From NCBI RefSeq assembly GCF_900142915.1, contig NZ_FRCM01000001.1:1488001-1552000 (forward strand): 64,000 bases of DNA, in the 5' to 3' direction. The stretch is from Mucilaginibacter sp. OK098. GTDB lineage: Bacteria > Bacteroidota > Bacteroidia > Sphingobacteriales > Sphingobacteriaceae. Positions within the stretch are counted from its first letter, which is position 1. Every line of letters begins with the position of its first letter. The notes below the pieces were generated by a model, which had not been told where the DNA came from, did no database searches, and was given only the letters and a program-made list of their open reading frames with translations. Made by a program: the position numbers and the translations under genes. This document shows positions 43,167 through 49,677 of the stretch, one piece after another.

Positions 43167-43814
43167 ATGAATCAGGATAAATTAGAAAACTTAAGAGCGG
43201 ATTACACAGCATCCTCACTATCAGAAAGCAGCACTAAAGCCGACCCGATAAAACAATTTGAGGCATGGTTTAACGAGGCCCTTGAAGCAAACGTGCCGGA
43301 GCACAATGCGATGACACTTTCAACAGCCACAACCAATGGCATGCCATCGGCAAGGATTGTTTTACTGAAAGGTATTTATAATGATGGCTTTGTTTTTTAT
43401 ACCAATTACCTGAGCCGCAAAGGCAAAGAGATAACAAAGAACCCGGTAGGCGCCCTAACATTTTTTTGGCCAGGCCAGGAGCGGCAGGTGCGTATCGAAG
43501 GCACTTTGGAAAAGTTAAGTAAAGAGCAATCAGAAAAATATTTCCACTCACGCCCTAAAGAAAGCCAGATTGGCGCTGTGGTATCGCCGCAAAGCCAGGA
43601 AATTGAGGGTCGTGACGTTTTAGAAAAAAAATGGAATGAATTAGCTGCCGAGTATACCGATAAGGAAGTGCCTAAACCATCATTTTGGGGTGGCTATATT
43701 TTAAAGCCCCGGATGATTGAGTTTTGGCAAGGCCGCACCAGTAGGCTGCATGACCGCATAGCTTACAAAAAGATAGATAACAAAACCTGGAAAAAAGTTC
43801 GTTTAGCACCATGA
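43167..43814 (+). CDS. pdxH: Pyridoxamine 5'-phosphate oxidase
   Basis: 215 residues. FMN-binding segments SARIVLLKGIYNDGFVFYTNYLSRKGKEI and FFWPGQERQVRIEG, plus the C-terminal signature FWGGYILKPRMIEFWQGRTSRLHDRI, are complete. It oxidises pyridoxamine or pyridoxine 5'-phosphate to pyridoxal 5'-phosphate. It overlaps nuoC by 4 bp (ATGA), so nuoC is translationally coupled to pdxH here rather than to nuoB, which is unusual. Confidence 0.97.
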   Translation: MNQDKLENLRADYTASSLSESSTKADPIKQFEAWFNEALEANVPEHNAMTLSTATTNGMPSARIVLLKGIYNDGFVFYTNYLSRKGKEITKNPVGALTFFWPGQERQVRIEGTLEKLSKEQSEKYFHSRPKESQIGAVVSPQSQEIEGRDVLEKKWNELAAEYTDKEVPKPSFWGGYILKPRMIEFWQGRTSRLHDRIAYKKIDNKTWKKVRLAP

Positions 43815-44308
43815 GTTTTGAGGAGATTAAATTATTATTGATTGAAAAGTTCGGCGCTGAAGTAATTATTGACGAAGAAACGGACGGCCTGCAACCCGCT
43901 TTGCTTATATCTCCTGCCCGTATTGCCGAAGTTTGCCTTGAGCTGCGAAATAATTCAAATACTTATTTTGATTTCCTGAGCAGCATAACGGGTGTAGATT
44001 ATGGTGTTGAAGCAAACCGCTTTGGCGTTGTTTACCACCTGGCGTCCATCCCTTACCAAACACAGCTTACATTAAAAGTAAGTATTGATAATGATCGCGA
44101 TCTTAACAACCTGCCAAGTTTTCCCAGCGTAACTTCTGTTTACCGCACTGCCGATTGGCACGAACGTGAAACTTATGACCTTTTAGGAATATTTTTCGAA
44201 GGCCATCCCGACCTTCGCCGCATTTTATTACCCGATGACTGGGAAGGTTTCCCTTTGCGCAAGGACTATAAAACAGCGGAGTATTATAGGGGGATAAAGA
44301 TAGATTAG
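43811..44308 (+). CDS. nuoC: NADH-quinone oxidoreductase subunit C
   Basis: 165 residues, the 30-kDa-type subunit not fused to NuoD. The conserved block ERETYDLLGIFFEGHPDLRRILLPDDWEGFPLRKDY is complete and ends in the usual KDYK. Peripheral arm of Complex I. It starts within the last codons of pdxH and is 9 kb from nuoB; nuoD follows at 45580 after a JmjC/cupin gene. The stop codon runs directly into a TAGAGATTAGAG repeat block. Confidence 0.95.
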   Translation: MSFEEIKLLLIEKFGAEVIIDEETDGLQPALLISPARIAEVCLELRNNSNTYFDFLSSITGVDYGVEANRFGVVYHLASIPYQTQLTLKVSIDNDRDLNNLPSFPSVTSVYRTADWHERETYDLLGIFFEGHPDLRRILLPDDWEGFPLRKDYKTAEYYRGIKID

Positions 44309-44547: not shown

Positions 44548-45390
44548 ATGGATATTATAAGAAGAGATAATATTACCTACGAAGAATTTATGGAGGAGCA
44601 TTATAAGCCCGGCATTCCGCTGGTTTTTACTAATGCTGCAAAAGTTTGGAAGGCAAACGGCTTGTTTACGCCCGATTGGTTCAGGGAAAATTATCCTGAG
44701 CGGGAAACCGATTGCAGGGGAACATCCTACAAAATGAAGGATATAATGGATATGGTTGAAACCAGCACGGTTGAAAAACCCGCACCCTACCCTATTATAT
44801 TTGATATCCCAGCAATTTTACCCGAGATAATGTCATTGATCGATCCGCTCGATCTGCAATACGCTTCGCCAAACTGGCTAAAAAACCCGATGTTTTCATT
44901 AGGCAAATGGGGCGGCGCTACAGAGTTGTTTATTGGCGGCCCGGGCGGCAAGTTCCCGTATTTACATATTGATTATTACCATTTAAATGCCTGGATCACC
45001 CAGCTATATGGCGAAAAACGGTTTACCGTATTCCCACGCGGGCAGGATGATTTGTTATACCCGCGCCCTGACGATCCCTGGCGCTCAGAATTAAACATTT
45101 TTGAACCGGATTTTGAGAAATTTCCGAAATATAAAGATGCCACACCTATTCATTTTACTGTAGGGCCGGGCGAAACGCTGTTTATTCCATTTGGAACATG
45201 GCATACAGCATATTCATTAACCCCAACTATTTCTGTAGCTTTTGATACGCTGAACAGCAAAAATCATAAAGAATTTATGAAAGATGTATGGACATTTAAA
45301 AGCCGCCAGAGTAAAGTAAAAGCCGTTGCCATGTATAGCTATGCCTGGCTGGCAACCCAAAGCAGCAAGCTTAAAGAAAGCTTTGCCTGA
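44548..45390 (+). CDS. JmjC/cupin_8-domain Fe(II)/2-oxoglutarate-dependent oxygenase-like protein
   Basis: 280 residues of the cupin-like (cupin_8/JmjC) fold. Iron ligands are visible: H140-x-D142 in YLHIDYYHLNAW and H219 in FGTWHTAYS; K157 in GEKRFTVFPRG or a nearby residue could bind 2-oxoglutarate. The N-terminal YKPGIPLVFTNAAKVW is typical of FIH-like and RmlC-like hydroxylases. Probable cytoplasmic hydroxylase of protein or small-molecule substrate; substrate unknown. It lies between nuoC and nuoD on the same strand, followed by a strong terminator that separates it from nuoD. Confidence 0.88.
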   Translation: MDIIRRDNITYEEFMEEHYKPGIPLVFTNAAKVWKANGLFTPDWFRENYPERETDCRGTSYKMKDIMDMVETSTVEKPAPYPIIFDIPAILPEIMSLIDPLDLQYASPNWLKNPMFSLGKWGGATELFIGGPGGKFPYLHIDYYHLNAWITQLYGEKRFTVFPRGQDDLLYPRPDDPWRSELNIFEPDFEKFPKYKDATPIHFTVGPGETLFIPFGTWHTAYSLTPTISVAFDTLNSKNHKEFMKDVWTFKSRQSKVKAVAMYSYAWLATQSSKLKESFA

Positions 45391-45579: not shown

Positions 45580-46779
45580 TTGGCCACACATCCCAAATAC
45601 GATACCGCTTTAAATAATTACTATCAAAAGATAGCCGATGCAGCCACCGAGGATATGGTGCTTAACATGGGGCCGCAGCATCCGTCAACCCACGGTGTGT
45701 TACGGCTTGAGCTGATAACAGATGGCGAGATAGTAAAAGAAGTGATCCCGCATATTGGCTATTTGCACCGCTGCTTTGAAAAACACGCAGAATCATTAAC
45801 CTATCAGCAAACCATTCCGTTTACCGACAGGATGGACTACCTGGCATCAATGAACAACAGCCATGCTTTTGTTATGGGTGTGGAGCGAATGATGGGCATT
45901 GATAAAGATATCCCAAAACGAATTGAATACATAAGGGTGCTGGTTTGCGAATTAAACCGCATAGCATCGCACCTGATAGCCATTGGCACCTATGGCATTG
46001 ATATTGGCGCCTTCACTCCCTTTTTATGGTGCTTCAGGGATAGGGAACATATTATGGGCATGCTGGAGTGGGCCTCAGGCTCGCGGATGCTGTATAACTA
46101 TATTTGGGTTGGCGGCTTGTTTTATGATCTGCCGGTAGGATTTGAAGAACGTTGCGCTGAGTTCGTAACCTATTTTAAGCCCAAAATGGTTGAGCTCAAC
46201 CAACTCTTAACCGATAACCAGGTATTCATAAGCCGCACAGCCAACGTTGGCGTTTTACCCCTTGATGTAGCCATAAACTATGGTTGCTCAGGCCCAATGC
46301 TTCGCGGATCAGGCCTTAAGTGGGATTTGAGGCGGATAGATAACTATTCCGTTTACCCGGAGCTTGAATTTGATATACCGGTGGGCAAAGGCGAAATGGG
46401 TGCCGTGGGCGATTGCTGGGACCGCTACAAGGTTCGGGTTGATGAGATTGAACAATCCCTCAAAATGGTTGAACAATGCCTTAGCCGTCTGCAAAATGAG
46501 CTGAAACGTACACCAGATTTTGATCCCCGCTCAAAAATGCCGCGTAAGATTACCCCAAAGGCACAGGACTATTATGTGAGGTGCGAAGGTGCAAAAGGCG
46601 AGCTGGGTTTTTATTTTATGGCTGATGGCCGGTCAGAGATCCCTACGCGCGTTAAAGCCCGCGCCCCAAGCTTTAATAACCTGTCTGTACTGCCCGAAAT
46701 AGCCAAAGGGGTAATGATTGCCGACATGATTGCCATAGTAGGCTCTATCGACTTTGTATTGGGCGAGGTGGACAGGTAG
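45580..46779 (+). CDS. nuoD: NADH-quinone oxidoreductase subunit D
   Basis: 399 residues from a TTG start at 45580 (no ATG until residue 25). The 49-kDa-subunit signatures are intact: [20 protein letters not shown] with the quinone-site histidine, [18 protein letters not shown], and the C-terminal [18 protein letters not shown] followed by [20 protein letters not shown]. Peripheral arm of Complex I, at the quinone cavity. It is separated from nuoC by the JmjC gene and a terminator. nuoE and later subunits do not follow; the next genes are on the other strand. Confidence 0.97.
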
Positions 46780-46942: not shown

Positions 46943-48040
46943 TTACTGGTTATAAACCCTAACCATAAATACGTAATTTTCTATTTTTTTAATCTGCTGA
47001 GGACGCCCAAGGCCAGCCAATATATTTTTACCGTTTATATTAATTGGCTTATTCAATGAATCAGTAGGAATATCCTTAATAGCCTTTAACAGATAACTTG
47101 TTTTAACCGCAAAGGCAGCACCTTCAACCCGGGTTTGCTTTCCGTTCACAATGCCGATAATATTACCTTTACTATCAAGCAATGGACCGCCACTATGCCC
47201 GTAGTCAAGCAGCGCTGATATCTGGTATTGCGTGGTATCGCCTTTGTACCCAGTGCTTGAAGTTAAGAAACCGGAACCCAGTACTATATTATCCTTTGGA
47301 TACCCTATGGTAAACACACCTTCTCCCAAATCGGTTTCAGCTTTTTTAAATGTGTAAGGCAACGCGGCTAATGGCTTAAAAGATGGATCAGTGATTTCCA
47401 AAATAGCAATATCGTTTTGTGGTTCGGTATAAATCACTTTGGTACGGTATGATTTTCCGTCAGCTGCCTGCACATAAACCGAATCTGCATGTTGGATAAC
47501 ATGATTATCTGTAACTATGTAACCATTAGCTGAAATTGCAAAACCAGTACCCCTGAAATTGCCCGGGTTATTCATTGCGGTCCGCAATGGAAGGTTCTTT
47601 ACCGCTGTCTGTAATGATTTTTGGCTGTTTTTTAATTTGTCGATCTCGCCAACCAACTGGCCATAGTTTGCTTGTTTATTACTCAAATATCCCGTAAAAA
47701 ACAAGGTACATAGCGCAGCAAATATTGCTATTGACGCCGCCACAGAAATCTTTGAATGATGATTGCGCCACATCCTCACTACCCATGACGGGTGGATCAT
47801 CAGCTCATCTTCCAAAGCATGAACATCAATTTCATCATGTATAGCATCCAGGCGTTGTTCCAACTCCAAACGTTCACCATACTGTTTTATCAGGTTGGTG
47901 AAATGCTTGTGCTCGGCTACTTTTGTGTTAACATCGGCATCCTTAGCCCGCAGTTCTTCAAACTGTGCGCGCTCAGCTTTGGTCATCTCACCATTAAGAT
48001 AACGTTCAATTGTTTCGGTTAACTGGTTATTCTCGCTCAT
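46943..48040 (-). CDS. Anti-sigma factor fused to a periplasmic trypsin-like serine protease
   Basis: 365 residues. Residues 1-95 are cytoplasmic and helical (ETIERYLNGEMTKAERAQFE, RLELEQRLDAIHDEIDVHALEDEL), like the N-terminus of Bacteroidota anti-sigma factors. One membrane helix follows at 97-118 (KISVAASIAIFAALCTLFFTGYL), a short coiled-coil (130-150), then an S1C/DegP-like protease domain with H180 (VTDNHVI), D210 (PQNDIAIL) and S283 (DYGHSGGPLL), a complete triad. There is no PDZ domain. It starts 13 bp after the ECF sigma gene, so they are an operon. It probably holds the sigma factor and senses envelope conditions with its own protease; the direction of control is inferred. Confidence 0.9.
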   Translation of the reverse strand: MSENNQLTETIERYLNGEMTKAERAQFEELRAKDADVNTKVAEHKHFTNLIKQYGERLELEQRLDAIHDEIDVHALEDELMIHPSWVVRMWRNHHSKISVAASIAIFAALCTLFFTGYLSNKQANYGQLVGEIDKLKNSQKSLQTAVKNLPLRTAMNNPGNFRGTGFAISANGYIVTDNHVIQHADSVYVQAADGKSYRTKVIYTEPQNDIAILEITDPSFKPLAALPYTFKKAETDLGEGVFTIGYPKDNIVLGSGFLTSSTGYKGDTTQYQISALLDYGHSGGPLLDSKGNIIGIVNGKQTRVEGAAFAVKTSYLLKAIKDIPTDSLNKPININGKNILAGLGRPQQIKKIENYVFMVRVYNQ

Positions 48041-48053
48041 CGCTTTTCTCTCC

Positions 48054-48623
48054 TTATTTTTGCTGAAAAAATAATTTCTTCAGCCTTTGCAGGCATTTAT
48101 ATTTTTGAGTTTTAGCATTATCTGCATTGGTATACCCAAAATTCTCGCAGATCTCCTGCATCGATCTGTTATTTATATAAAAATCTTCTATAATAGTTTT
48201 ACAAGGCTCGCCCAATAACTGGAGGGCATTACCCATTTTATTAAACTGGATGTCGCGTTCATTATTCTTTTCAGTTTCATCATCAACAGATAAGTACTCC
48301 TGGAAATCTTTTATATCGCCGCCATACCTGTTCATATGTGTAAGCCTTTTAAGCCAAAGCCTTCTACAAATCGAATAGATATAGGTTTTAAGCTTACTGC
48401 TTAATTCAAAATCACCCGTTTTAACTTTATTATAAAGAACAATTATGGCTTCCTGGTAAATGTCTTTCGCATCATCAGCATTGCCATTGTTATTAATTAC
48501 CAGTTGTAATATCATCGGAAAATAAGCGATATACAGTCGCTTTAACACACTTTCCGAATTGTTAAGGATACCAAGGATAACTTCACTATCTGTTGGTATT
48601 CCGCTATTTAACTCTTTACTCAC
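48054..48623 (-). CDS. ECF-type RNA polymerase sigma factor
   Basis: 189 residues, GTG start at 48621-48623 (an in-frame stop lies two codons upstream). Region 2 is NADDAKDIYQEAIIVLYNKV with the polymerase-binding and -10-reading helices, and region 4 is the C-terminal NRSMQEICENFGYTNADNAKTQKYKCLQRLKKLF. The region 2/region 4 linker is long and acidic (LSVDDETEKNNERD). It is followed 13 bp downstream by the membrane anti-sigma/protease fusion. Likely self-regulated; the promoter it recognises is unknown. The divergent 490-bp spacer leads to two small lipoprotein genes that are possible targets. Confidence 0.93.
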   Translation of the reverse strand: MSKELNSGIPTDSEVILGILNNSESVLKRLYIAYFPMILQLVINNNGNADDAKDIYQEAIIVLYNKVKTGDFELSSKLKTYIYSICRRLWLKRLTHMNRYGGDIKDFQEYLSVDDETEKNNERDIQFNKMGNALQLLGEPCKTIIEDFYINNRSMQEICENFGYTNADNAKTQKYKCLQRLKKLFFQQK

Positions 48624-48711
48624 TACTTAATACTATTTATGCGAAATTGTAACCCATTATTGATAAAAAAAAATTAAAACCAAAATAAATTTACTTTTTG
48701 ATTGATCGAAA

Positions 48712-48906: not shown

Positions 48907-49113
48907 CGCACACCCAAGCTAACTTACCCTAAAACTGTTAAAGATAAAGAACAGTAACATCAGATAAAAGTAACGAAACCATAACTCCGGCTACTTTTAT
49001 CGTATTAAAACTACTAATGCTATGGATTTTATATTTTTTTAAAAAATAAGTGGGTTACCTTTTAAACATTCTGGTATTAATGCTACAAACACTCACATTT
49101 AAAATAATAAAAA

Positions 49114-49311
49114 ATGAAAAATTCATTCAAAATGGGCGCTTTAGCCTTAGTTATCGCGGTTTCTTTCGCAGCTTGTAAAGGTAAATCTGATTCAACTACT
49201 ACTGACACAACTGTAAAAGTTGATTCAACAGTTAAAAAAGATTCAGTAGTTAAAGTTGACACAACTGCTAAAAAAGACACCACTAAAAAAGACACTACTA
49301 AAAAGAAATAA
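49114..49311 (+). CDS. Small lysine/threonine-rich lipoprotein, tandem copy A
   Basis: 65 residues: signal peptide and lipobox MKNSFKMGALALVIAVSFAAC (Cys21), then a low-complexity tail of KVDST, KKDS, KKDTT units. The first 27 residues (to KGKSDS) are identical to those of copy B at 49450, while the tails differ, so the two arose by tandem duplication with unequal divergence. It has no folded domain and is probably a small surface-exposed or periplasmic polycation anchored by lipid. Upstream DNA is also shared with copy B. Confidence 0.8.
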   Translation: MKNSFKMGALALVIAVSFAACKGKSDSTTTDTTVKVDSTVKKDSVVKVDTTAKKDTTKKDTTKKK

Positions 49312-49353: not shown

Positions 49354-49403
49354 AAAAGGTAATCTCTGATTTTTTTAAAAATCGTGGGTTACCTTTTGCT
49401 TTT
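49354..49403 (+). terminator. Nested terminator hairpin between the two small lipoprotein genes
   Basis: Outer stem AAAAGGTAA (49354-49362) / TTACCTTTT (49389-49397), inner stem GATTTTT / AAAAATC, followed by GCTTTTTT. A related but unpaired GGGTTACCTTTT occurs at 49051-49062 upstream of copy A, marking the duplication unit. Confidence 0.7.
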
Positions 49404-49449
49404 TTAGGTATTAAGAGAAACTATTTAATCACTTAAAAAGAAAATTAAC

Positions 49450-49677
49450 ATGAAAAATTCATTCAAAATGGGCGCTTTAGCCTTAGTTATCGCAGTTTCT
49501 TTCGCTGCTTGTAAAGGTAAATCTGATTCAGCTGCTGCAGATTCAGCTAAAATGGACTCAGCTAAAATGGATTCAGCTAAAATGACTGACACAGCTAAGA
49601 AAATGGTTGACACAGCTAAAAAAATGACTGACACAGCTAAAAAAATGACTGCTGACACTACTAAGAAAAAGAAATAA
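49450..49677 (+). CDS. Small lysine-rich lipoprotein, tandem copy B
   Basis: 75 residues with the same signal peptide and lipobox as copy A (residues 1-27 identical), then tail units DSAKMDSAKM, TDTAKKMVDTAKKM, TDTAKKMTADTTKKKK. The tail has perfect 5-, 7- and 9-residue repeats, which is consistent with slipped-strand growth. The start ATG lies 336 bp after that of copy A. A strong terminator follows the stop. No database family is recognisable; it may be a surface-charge or adhesion peptide. Confidence 0.8.
   Translation: MKNSFKMGALALVIAVSFAACKGKSDSAAADSAKMDSAKMDSAKMTDTAKKMVDTAKKMTDTAKKMTADTTKKKK

Follow-up and report, generated by a model that had tools for sequence, protein, structure and literature searches.

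A predicted envelope-signalling module of Mucilaginibacter combining an ECF sigma factor, an anti-sigma-like/HtrA-like protease fusion and small lipoproteins rich in O-glycosylation-type motifs

A stretch of 64,000 nucleotides from the genome of Mucilaginibacter sp. OK098 (hereafter, the window) carried the gene of an ECF sigma factor directly before the gene of a membrane protein in which an anti-sigma-like domain is joined to a trypsin-like protease, and the same promoter-like motif, GGGTTAC-N15-GTATTAA, occurred before the sigma gene and before two divergent genes for small lipoproteins. We propose a model in which the protease of the fusion would serve as an intrinsic site-1 protease, cutting either its own chain or an adjacent one, after which RseP would act and the sigma factor would be freed; for this model as a whole we consider the chances to be about even. 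The part concerning the sigma factor, the promoter and the lipoproteins, taken alone, is very probably correct as judged from sequence comparison.

Both ORFs of the pair named in the preliminary description were present on the minus strand, the sigma gene at 48054..48623 (189 aa, GTG start) and the fusion gene at 46943..48040 (365 aa, ATG start). The sigma protein passed the cut-off of the sigma70-ECF superfamily model TIGR02937 of NCBIfam (67.6 vs. 42.9 bits; residues 28-183, regions 2 to 4) and stayed below that of the Bacteroidetes sigma-70 subfamily TIGR02985 (46.9 vs. 126.4 bits), and Pfam recognized region 2 only (Sigma70_r2, residues 30-95, E 4e-8); the protein may have a group number in the ECF classification. 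Relatives were recovered with the fusion protein as query, so that split forms are possibly under-counted. A match was found in 148 genomes of the family, 110 of which were examined in detail, and dropping duplicates (4 of 59 and 4 of 139) left 55 and 135 loci, respectively, with the window's own locus included; outside the family, 18 of 19 strong matches were examined (G221 was left out). Mucilaginibacter (Sphingobacteriaceae) was the source of all 29 named loci that the fusion query brought up. Sigma and fusion genes adjoined each other on the same strand in all 135 distinct family loci, with spacings from a 17-nt overlap to a 94-nt gap, and also in all 18 loci examined from three further families of the same class as the window genome (f2, f9, and f10), in which the sigma protein was 39-55% identical. 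Elsewhere in the window, the ORFs 43811-44308 and 45580-46779 presumably encode the respiratory complex I subunits NuoC and NuoD, and a gene for a Cupin_8/JmjC-like protein (44548-45390, plus strand; Cupin_8 E 4.6e-23) lies between them.

The proposed architecture of the fusion, a helical N-terminal domain, one transmembrane (TM) helix and an HtrA-type protease in a single protein, was borne out, and so was the contrast drawn with the separate RseA and DegS proteins, a single ORF encoding all parts here and likewise in relatives. Residues 1-80 (47801..48040, minus strand) are predicted to form a class I anti-sigma domain on the grounds of structure models, fold ranking and sub-threshold matches to zf-HC2. 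In the AlphaFold model, the N-terminal part contained helices at residues 3-15, 21-33, 35-70, 73-82, and 84-98 (mean pLDDT 83). A Foldseek comparison of this model with 350,542 PDB chains returned 11 matches, none of them significant (best E 2.2), the evidence lying in their ranking and not in the E-value: ranks 1-6 were chains from the SigW-RsiW, SigL-RslA, and AlgU-MucA structures, and rank 9 came from a SigK complex. From their length (63-71), the top-ranked chains would be the anti-sigma partners. Superposition on RsiW with VIA-align gave a Z of 6.2 (rmsd 5.1 A, 70 aligned), a value within what chance alone can produce for helical bundles. In sequence searches, Pfam gave no above-threshold match in the first 100 residues of the fusion protein, zf-HC2 appeared below threshold in 12 of 16 fusion members (best E 0.0049), and no anti-sigma factor was found among the 60 matches listed when the domain was searched against PDB, the best being a SUMO construct (E 0.0017). 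The N-terminal profile had one other match at E 1 or better in the same genome (positions 3-38, E 0.0115), to a protein that we take to be FecR-like.

A class I anti-sigma domain is described in a passage of PMC7406223 as an N-terminal helical domain, a three-helix bundle plus a fourth helix, whose zinc type is marked by Hx3Cx2C and which also has non-zinc members. The fusion protein contained no Hx3Cx2C motif, its sole cysteine being residue 111 within the TM helix. We read its N-terminal part as a predicted class I anti-sigma domain of a divergent kind without zinc; among family loci, this part was on average 45% identical to that of the window protein. The main anomaly for this reading is that two loci of f10 (L202 and L206) encode a fusion in which the anti-sigma part is shorter by its initial ~36-46 residues and so lacks its first two helices. 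This missing portion, together with the lack of a Pfam match over threshold, would suit a domain that acts as a positive partner or merely as a tether and does not inhibit the sigma factor. We nevertheless regard such a role as very unlikely, as the six best PDB folds, although not significant, came from ECF/anti-sigma structures and as the gene order, sigma factor and then membrane protein at tight spacing on one strand, speaks against it.

The best 19-residue hydrophobic window of the fusion started at residue 98, and one such helix was found (residues 98-117; 47690..47749, minus strand), with a mean identity of 58%, equal to that of the protease. It is followed by a juxtamembrane linker (residues 118-160; 47561..47689, minus strand), the most divergent segment of the protein (25% mean identity) and the putative site-1 region. 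The protease domain (residues 161-322; 47075..47560, minus strand) is of the HtrA/DegS type without PDZ, as indicated by Trypsin_2 (residues 164-297, E 2.4e-23 in Pfam), the triad and the fold, whose best structural match in PDB was DegS lacking its PDZ (TM-score 0.70 by target length). Scores stayed below the equivalog cut-offs of DegS (62.2 vs. 422.95 bits) and DegP (51.3 vs. 720); a His-Asp-Ser triad in a trypsin-like fold places the domain in S1C/HtrA. The Pfam search of the fusion revealed no PDZ nor any other known ligand domain able to gate the protease. A conserved C-terminal tail (residues 323-365; 46946..47074, minus strand; 56% mean identity) completes the protein, with a helix at 346-354 and a strand at 357-363.

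The triad residues proposed at the outset, H180 (47501-47503), D210 (47411-47413), and S283 (47192-47194; all on the minus strand), coincided with triad positions conserved in each of the 135 distinct family loci, and this invariance rules out a dead protease serving as a sensor domain. The suggestion that the protease is itself a sensor, or that it cuts neighbouring anti-sigma molecules, is compatible with the invariant triad and the fast-evolving linker. A homologue of RseP above its cut-off was present in the same genome; the conserved TM helix, the free linker and this homologue would suit a substrate of stepwise intramembrane proteolysis.

A protease built into an inhibitor might just as well serve as an effector. 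The sigma factor would then be released by other means and would switch on an envelope protease that merely happens to be fused to the inhibitor, and stand-alone relatives of the protease in other families suggest that the domain can work alone. Seven stretches (L274-L280, from f24, f17, and f53) encoded such proteins of 397-533 aa, with intermediate matches to the query; six of the seven displayed, by eye, a secretion signal or a lipobox, and no relative of the sigma factor was found within these stretches. Against this stands the regular joining of the two halves: among the 137 family genomes with a fusion match, the best match covered both halves in 134 (the rest being pieces, in G079, G134, and G149), and outside the family the fusion spanned both in 16 of 18 loci, with the reservation on split forms made above. 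Overall, we hold a pure effector role to be decidedly unlikely. The proteases of L274-L280 aligned into the C-terminal tail of the fusion in tblastn, several of them ending like VYIIEV; among other matches, L281 was a generic HtrA-like protein and that of L282 fell in a short frame.

The regions upstream of 48623 and 49114 had been pointed out as places for a conserved promoter, and the motif GGGTTAC-N15-GTATTAA, first noticed in the raw sequence, was found before the sigma gene and both lipoprotein genes. Its three sites lie at 48627..48655 (minus strand), ending 3 nt before the sigma GTG, at 49052..49080 (plus strand), 33 nt before the ATG of the first lipoprotein, and at 49386..49414 (plus strand), 35 nt before that of the second. 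In the whole genome of 7.2 Mb, the exact motif occurred precisely at these three sites. When two mismatches were allowed, 75 sites were obtained vs. 88 for the reversed control, and because such sites were no commoner than in the control, weaker members of the regulon are indistinguishable from noise. With two extra fixed T positions, the motif was found in 124 of 151 family genomes and the reversed-pattern control in 2; a chance origin of the motif is ruled out by these figures and by the location of all three exact sites here.

Upstream of the sigma gene, the motif was present at every one of the 134 testable family loci, as an exact copy in 126 and with a single mismatch in 8 (L116 was left out of these counts as its stretch is cut inside the sigma gene), the gap between the blocks being 15 nt in 125 of them and 16 nt in 9. 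The same was true for all 18 loci of f2, f9, and f10 (14 exact, 4 with one mismatch; gap of 15 or 16 nt), in 17 of which the site was at the sigma start and in one 127 nt upstream. Two fixed blocks separated by 15 or 16 nt correspond to the geometry of ECF promoters. In 121 of the 134 loci, the final base of GTATTAA was 2-3 nt ahead of the first in-frame start codon of the sigma gene; over all 134, this codon was GTG in 121 loci, TTG in 10, and ATG in 3; behind the divergent sites, the first ATG followed 23-47 nt downstream in 147 of 156 cases. Because the -10-like block is so close to the sigma gene, the usual transcription start would fall inside the sigma ORF unless the mRNA is leaderless. 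A spacing this short and constant would be in keeping with a leaderless mRNA whose 5' end is at, or close to, the GTG, and leaderless transcripts amount to 5.5% of the mRNAs of Flavobacterium psychrophilum according to a passage of PMC9723704. Alternatively, transcripts from the sense site would skip the sigma start codon and feed the inhibitor gene only. Some loci, e.g., L027 (126 nt), L030, L031, L040, L041, L055, and L062-L064, had another sense copy of the motif at a distance of 77-198 nt ahead of the sigma gene, and in L047 (at about 240-290 of that locus) the motif was 17 nt from the sigma GTG, with an ATG and a mini-ORF of five codons in between.

Presence of the module varied within the family, and its parts were retained or lost together. 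A full-length fusion was absent from 14 of 151 family genomes (11 with a generic HtrA-like match only and 3 with none; 8 of the 14 at least 90% complete and 6 under 90%), and these same 14 genomes displayed neither a motif match nor a relative of the sigma factor at E 1e-20, a relative that was found at this threshold in four of four fusion-bearing genomes tested. An exact motif match was obtained in 124 of the 137 genomes with the fusion vs. 0 of the 14 without it (Fisher P 1e-12, relatedness ignored). Among 392 genomes of the phylum, for which at most five candidates per genome were scored, strong matches (at least 320 bits) were limited to f1 (12 of 12), f2 (14 of 14), f9 (3 of 3), and f10 (2 of 3), and no match above 210 bits appeared in the remaining 360, which rules out a phylum-wide presence. 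The joint absence of motif and sigma gene in 14 of 14 genomes also bears on the possibility that a different regulator, be it a repressor or an activator, acts at the motif, which would then not be a promoter of this sigma factor. The unusual nearness of the sense site to the sigma start codon would be in line with such a site; this absence, the two fixed blocks with a gap of 15 or 16 nt and the ATG 23-47 nt behind most divergent sites all count against it, and we give this possibility little credence. We infer that the motif is the promoter recognized by this sigma factor.

The two lipoprotein genes of the window (49114..49311 and 49450..49677, plus strand) encode 65 and 75 aa, with 7 and 8 D-S/T-X sequons past the lipobox Cys, respectively. 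Divergent sites with up to one mismatch were followed by 174 ORFs in 117 of 153 loci (102 of 135 in the family and 15 of 18 in the others), and four more divergent sites had no ORF in the stretch examined, one of them belonging to the second lipoprotein of the window, which is truncated where L050 ends. Of the 174 ORFs, 158 were 60-79 aa long, 173 presented the strict lipobox pattern (vs. 6 of 221 control ORFs of the window), and 163 contained at least three sequons. In 162 distinct mature lipoproteins, related sequences that are not independent of each other, Asp was followed by Ser or Thr in 973 of 1032 cases, 875 of these Asp residues sitting in a full D-S/T-A/I/L/V/M/T motif, whereas the corresponding figures were 44 of 227 for Glu in the same lipoproteins and 98 of 885 for Asp in a control of 50 window ORFs of at least 150 aa taken from all six frames. 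The mean was 5.4 motifs per mature lipoprotein (range 0-8) vs. 1.0 in shuffles that keep composition, and the count exceeded expectation in 160 of the 162. Lys was the C-terminal residue in 74 of the 162, a feature that may bear on wall attachment. The O-glycosylation motif of Bacteroidota is given in a passage of PMC12871550 as D-S/T-A/L/V/I/M/T in exported protein; the rule of Asp and not Glu and the third position match this motif, and the lipoproteins are probably densely O-glycosylated. Both window lipoproteins weakly resembled the PG1828 family lipoprotein (NF050142) over most of their length, at 26.2 and 32.2 bits and below the curated cut-off of 50.

A divergent lipoprotein was lacking in 33 family loci, of which one (L135) had a site with two mismatches, four were short or cut, and 28 (genera g4, g16, and g19) had no sequon lipoprotein gene within 1.6-1.7 kb upstream. 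A scan of these 28 genomes with up to two mismatches yielded 54 matches vs. 12 for the control, and in 23 of them a site with at most one mismatch, at least 88 kb away or on another contig, preceded a sequon lipoprotein gene. Of the other five, G087 and G117 had no site at all in the scan, the sole unlinked site of G016 and of G045 had two mismatches and no fitting ORF, and the site of G078, with two mismatches, preceded a 270-aa lipoprotein without a sequon array. Therefore, the link between sigma factor and lipoproteins does not come from synteny alone, a reading ruled out by these unlinked sites before lipoprotein genes, all with at most one mismatch, and the idea that the sigma factor targets the divergent lipoprotein genes gained support from a motif common to the window and its relatives, also in cases of a distant lipoprotein gene. 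Of seven further exact sites at unlinked positions that were examined, three preceded sequon lipoproteins. The four that did not were those of L264 (a 393-aa ORF), L266 (206 aa), and L260 and L265 (no close ORF); the regulon may therefore be wider in some genomes, unless these sites are due to chance. In the window genome, the module appears, from the exact sites, to control little besides itself and tiny sequon-rich lipoproteins.

A regulon of this kind invites the reading of a homeostatic loop, in which the fused protease would be the sensor and its ligand or substrate would be the lipoprotein of the regulon, e.g., in an unmodified or mislocalised form; put differently, abundant and properly matured lipoprotein would keep the module off or be cleared by the protease. 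The restriction of exact motif sites in the window genome to the module and its lipoproteins, the joint retention or loss of module and motif, and the nature of the lipoproteins as low-complexity sequon arrays all suit a closed loop. The lipoprotein gene was however unlinked to the module in 23 genomes, and a plain target gene would tolerate this equally; on balance we find the loop unlikely. A further reading, which we find rather improbable, would make the module a dedicated sentinel for O-glycosylation of envelope proteins or for lipoprotein maturation, with the sequon lipoprotein as its probe. A fully glycosylated probe would be protease-resistant and silent, whereas an under-glycosylated one would be bound or cut by the fused protease; this engagement would switch the protease to its own tether, free the sigma factor and lead to more probe and more sensor. 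If true, sensor protease, anti-sigma factor and reporter substrate would have evolved as one closed loop.

The explanation that we prefer is the one given at the beginning, a self-contained envelope-signalling module. The fusion would, through its N-terminal class I anti-sigma domain, keep the sigma factor at the inner membrane until an envelope signal activates the periplasmic HtrA-like protease domain, the built-in site-1 protease. Once active, this domain would cut the variable linker of its own or of a neighbouring fusion chain in an HtrA-like trimer, and the RseP-type site-2 protease of the genome would then cut the conserved TM helix and free the sigma factor. Transcription from GGGTTAC-N15-GTATTAA would follow, both of its own operon, probably as a leaderless GTG transcript, and of the small lipoprotein genes. 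The sequences themselves show the domain architecture, the order of the genes, the invariance of the triad, the common motif with lipoprotein genes as its other bearers, and the sequon arrays; the binding between sigma factor and anti-sigma domain, the role of the motif as promoter, the cleavages with their order, glycosylation, and the signal are what we infer.

Among known systems, the closest in logic is sigmaE/RseA/DegS/RseP of Escherichia coli (for its scheme, see PMC8103513), with which the module shares an ECF sigma factor, a predicted membrane anti-sigma factor, a DegS-type fold and an RseP-type protease in the genome. In contrast to that system, site-1 protease and anti-sigma factor are one polypeptide here and no PDZ was found, and the broad regulon of sigmaE compares with three exact predicted promoters in this genome. 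The module would work like sigmaE-RseA-DegS but is not a member of it, with neither separate proteins nor a PDZ. The Dma/Das (ECF21) system of Bacteroides also pairs a Bacteroidota ECF sigma factor with a neighbouring membrane anti-sigma factor, Dma consisting of an N-terminal sigma-binding domain, a TM helix and a long extracytoplasmic part that ends in a beta-barrel (both points from a passage of PMC13088901), whereas the fusion ends in a trypsin-like protease and has no C-terminal beta-barrel. FecI/FecR cell-surface signalling likewise involves an N-terminal sigma-binding domain (predicted here) and one TM helix, but the fusion had no FecR match in Pfam and carries a protease instead, and no receptor gene was recognized among the neighbouring ORFs listed; the likeness to the Dma and FecR systems is limited to the cytoplasmic part. 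FecR is cleaved by RseP in E. coli, as stated in a passage of PMC8144685. The excerpts of the literature matches listed held no description of the fusion, the motif or the lipoprotein regulon.

Judging from the loci compared, this is a small circuit kept in several bacterial families, with a conserved pair in which a predicted inhibitor bears an intact protease and with a motif specific enough for the regulon to be read from sequence; the sigma factor and the motif might also be used together as an orthogonal pair for expression. A class I anti-sigma domain occurs in the neighbourhood of only 6% of Bacteroidetes ECF sigma factors, according to PMC7406223 in the passage cited, and because of this low share the control of most of these sigma factors is open. 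The role of Bacteroidota O-glycans is likewise called largely unknown in the passage of PMC12871550, and the module links an ECF sigma factor to lipoproteins made of O-glycosylation motifs. It would offer a compact and testable example for asking if an anti-sigma factor can itself supply site-1 proteolysis.
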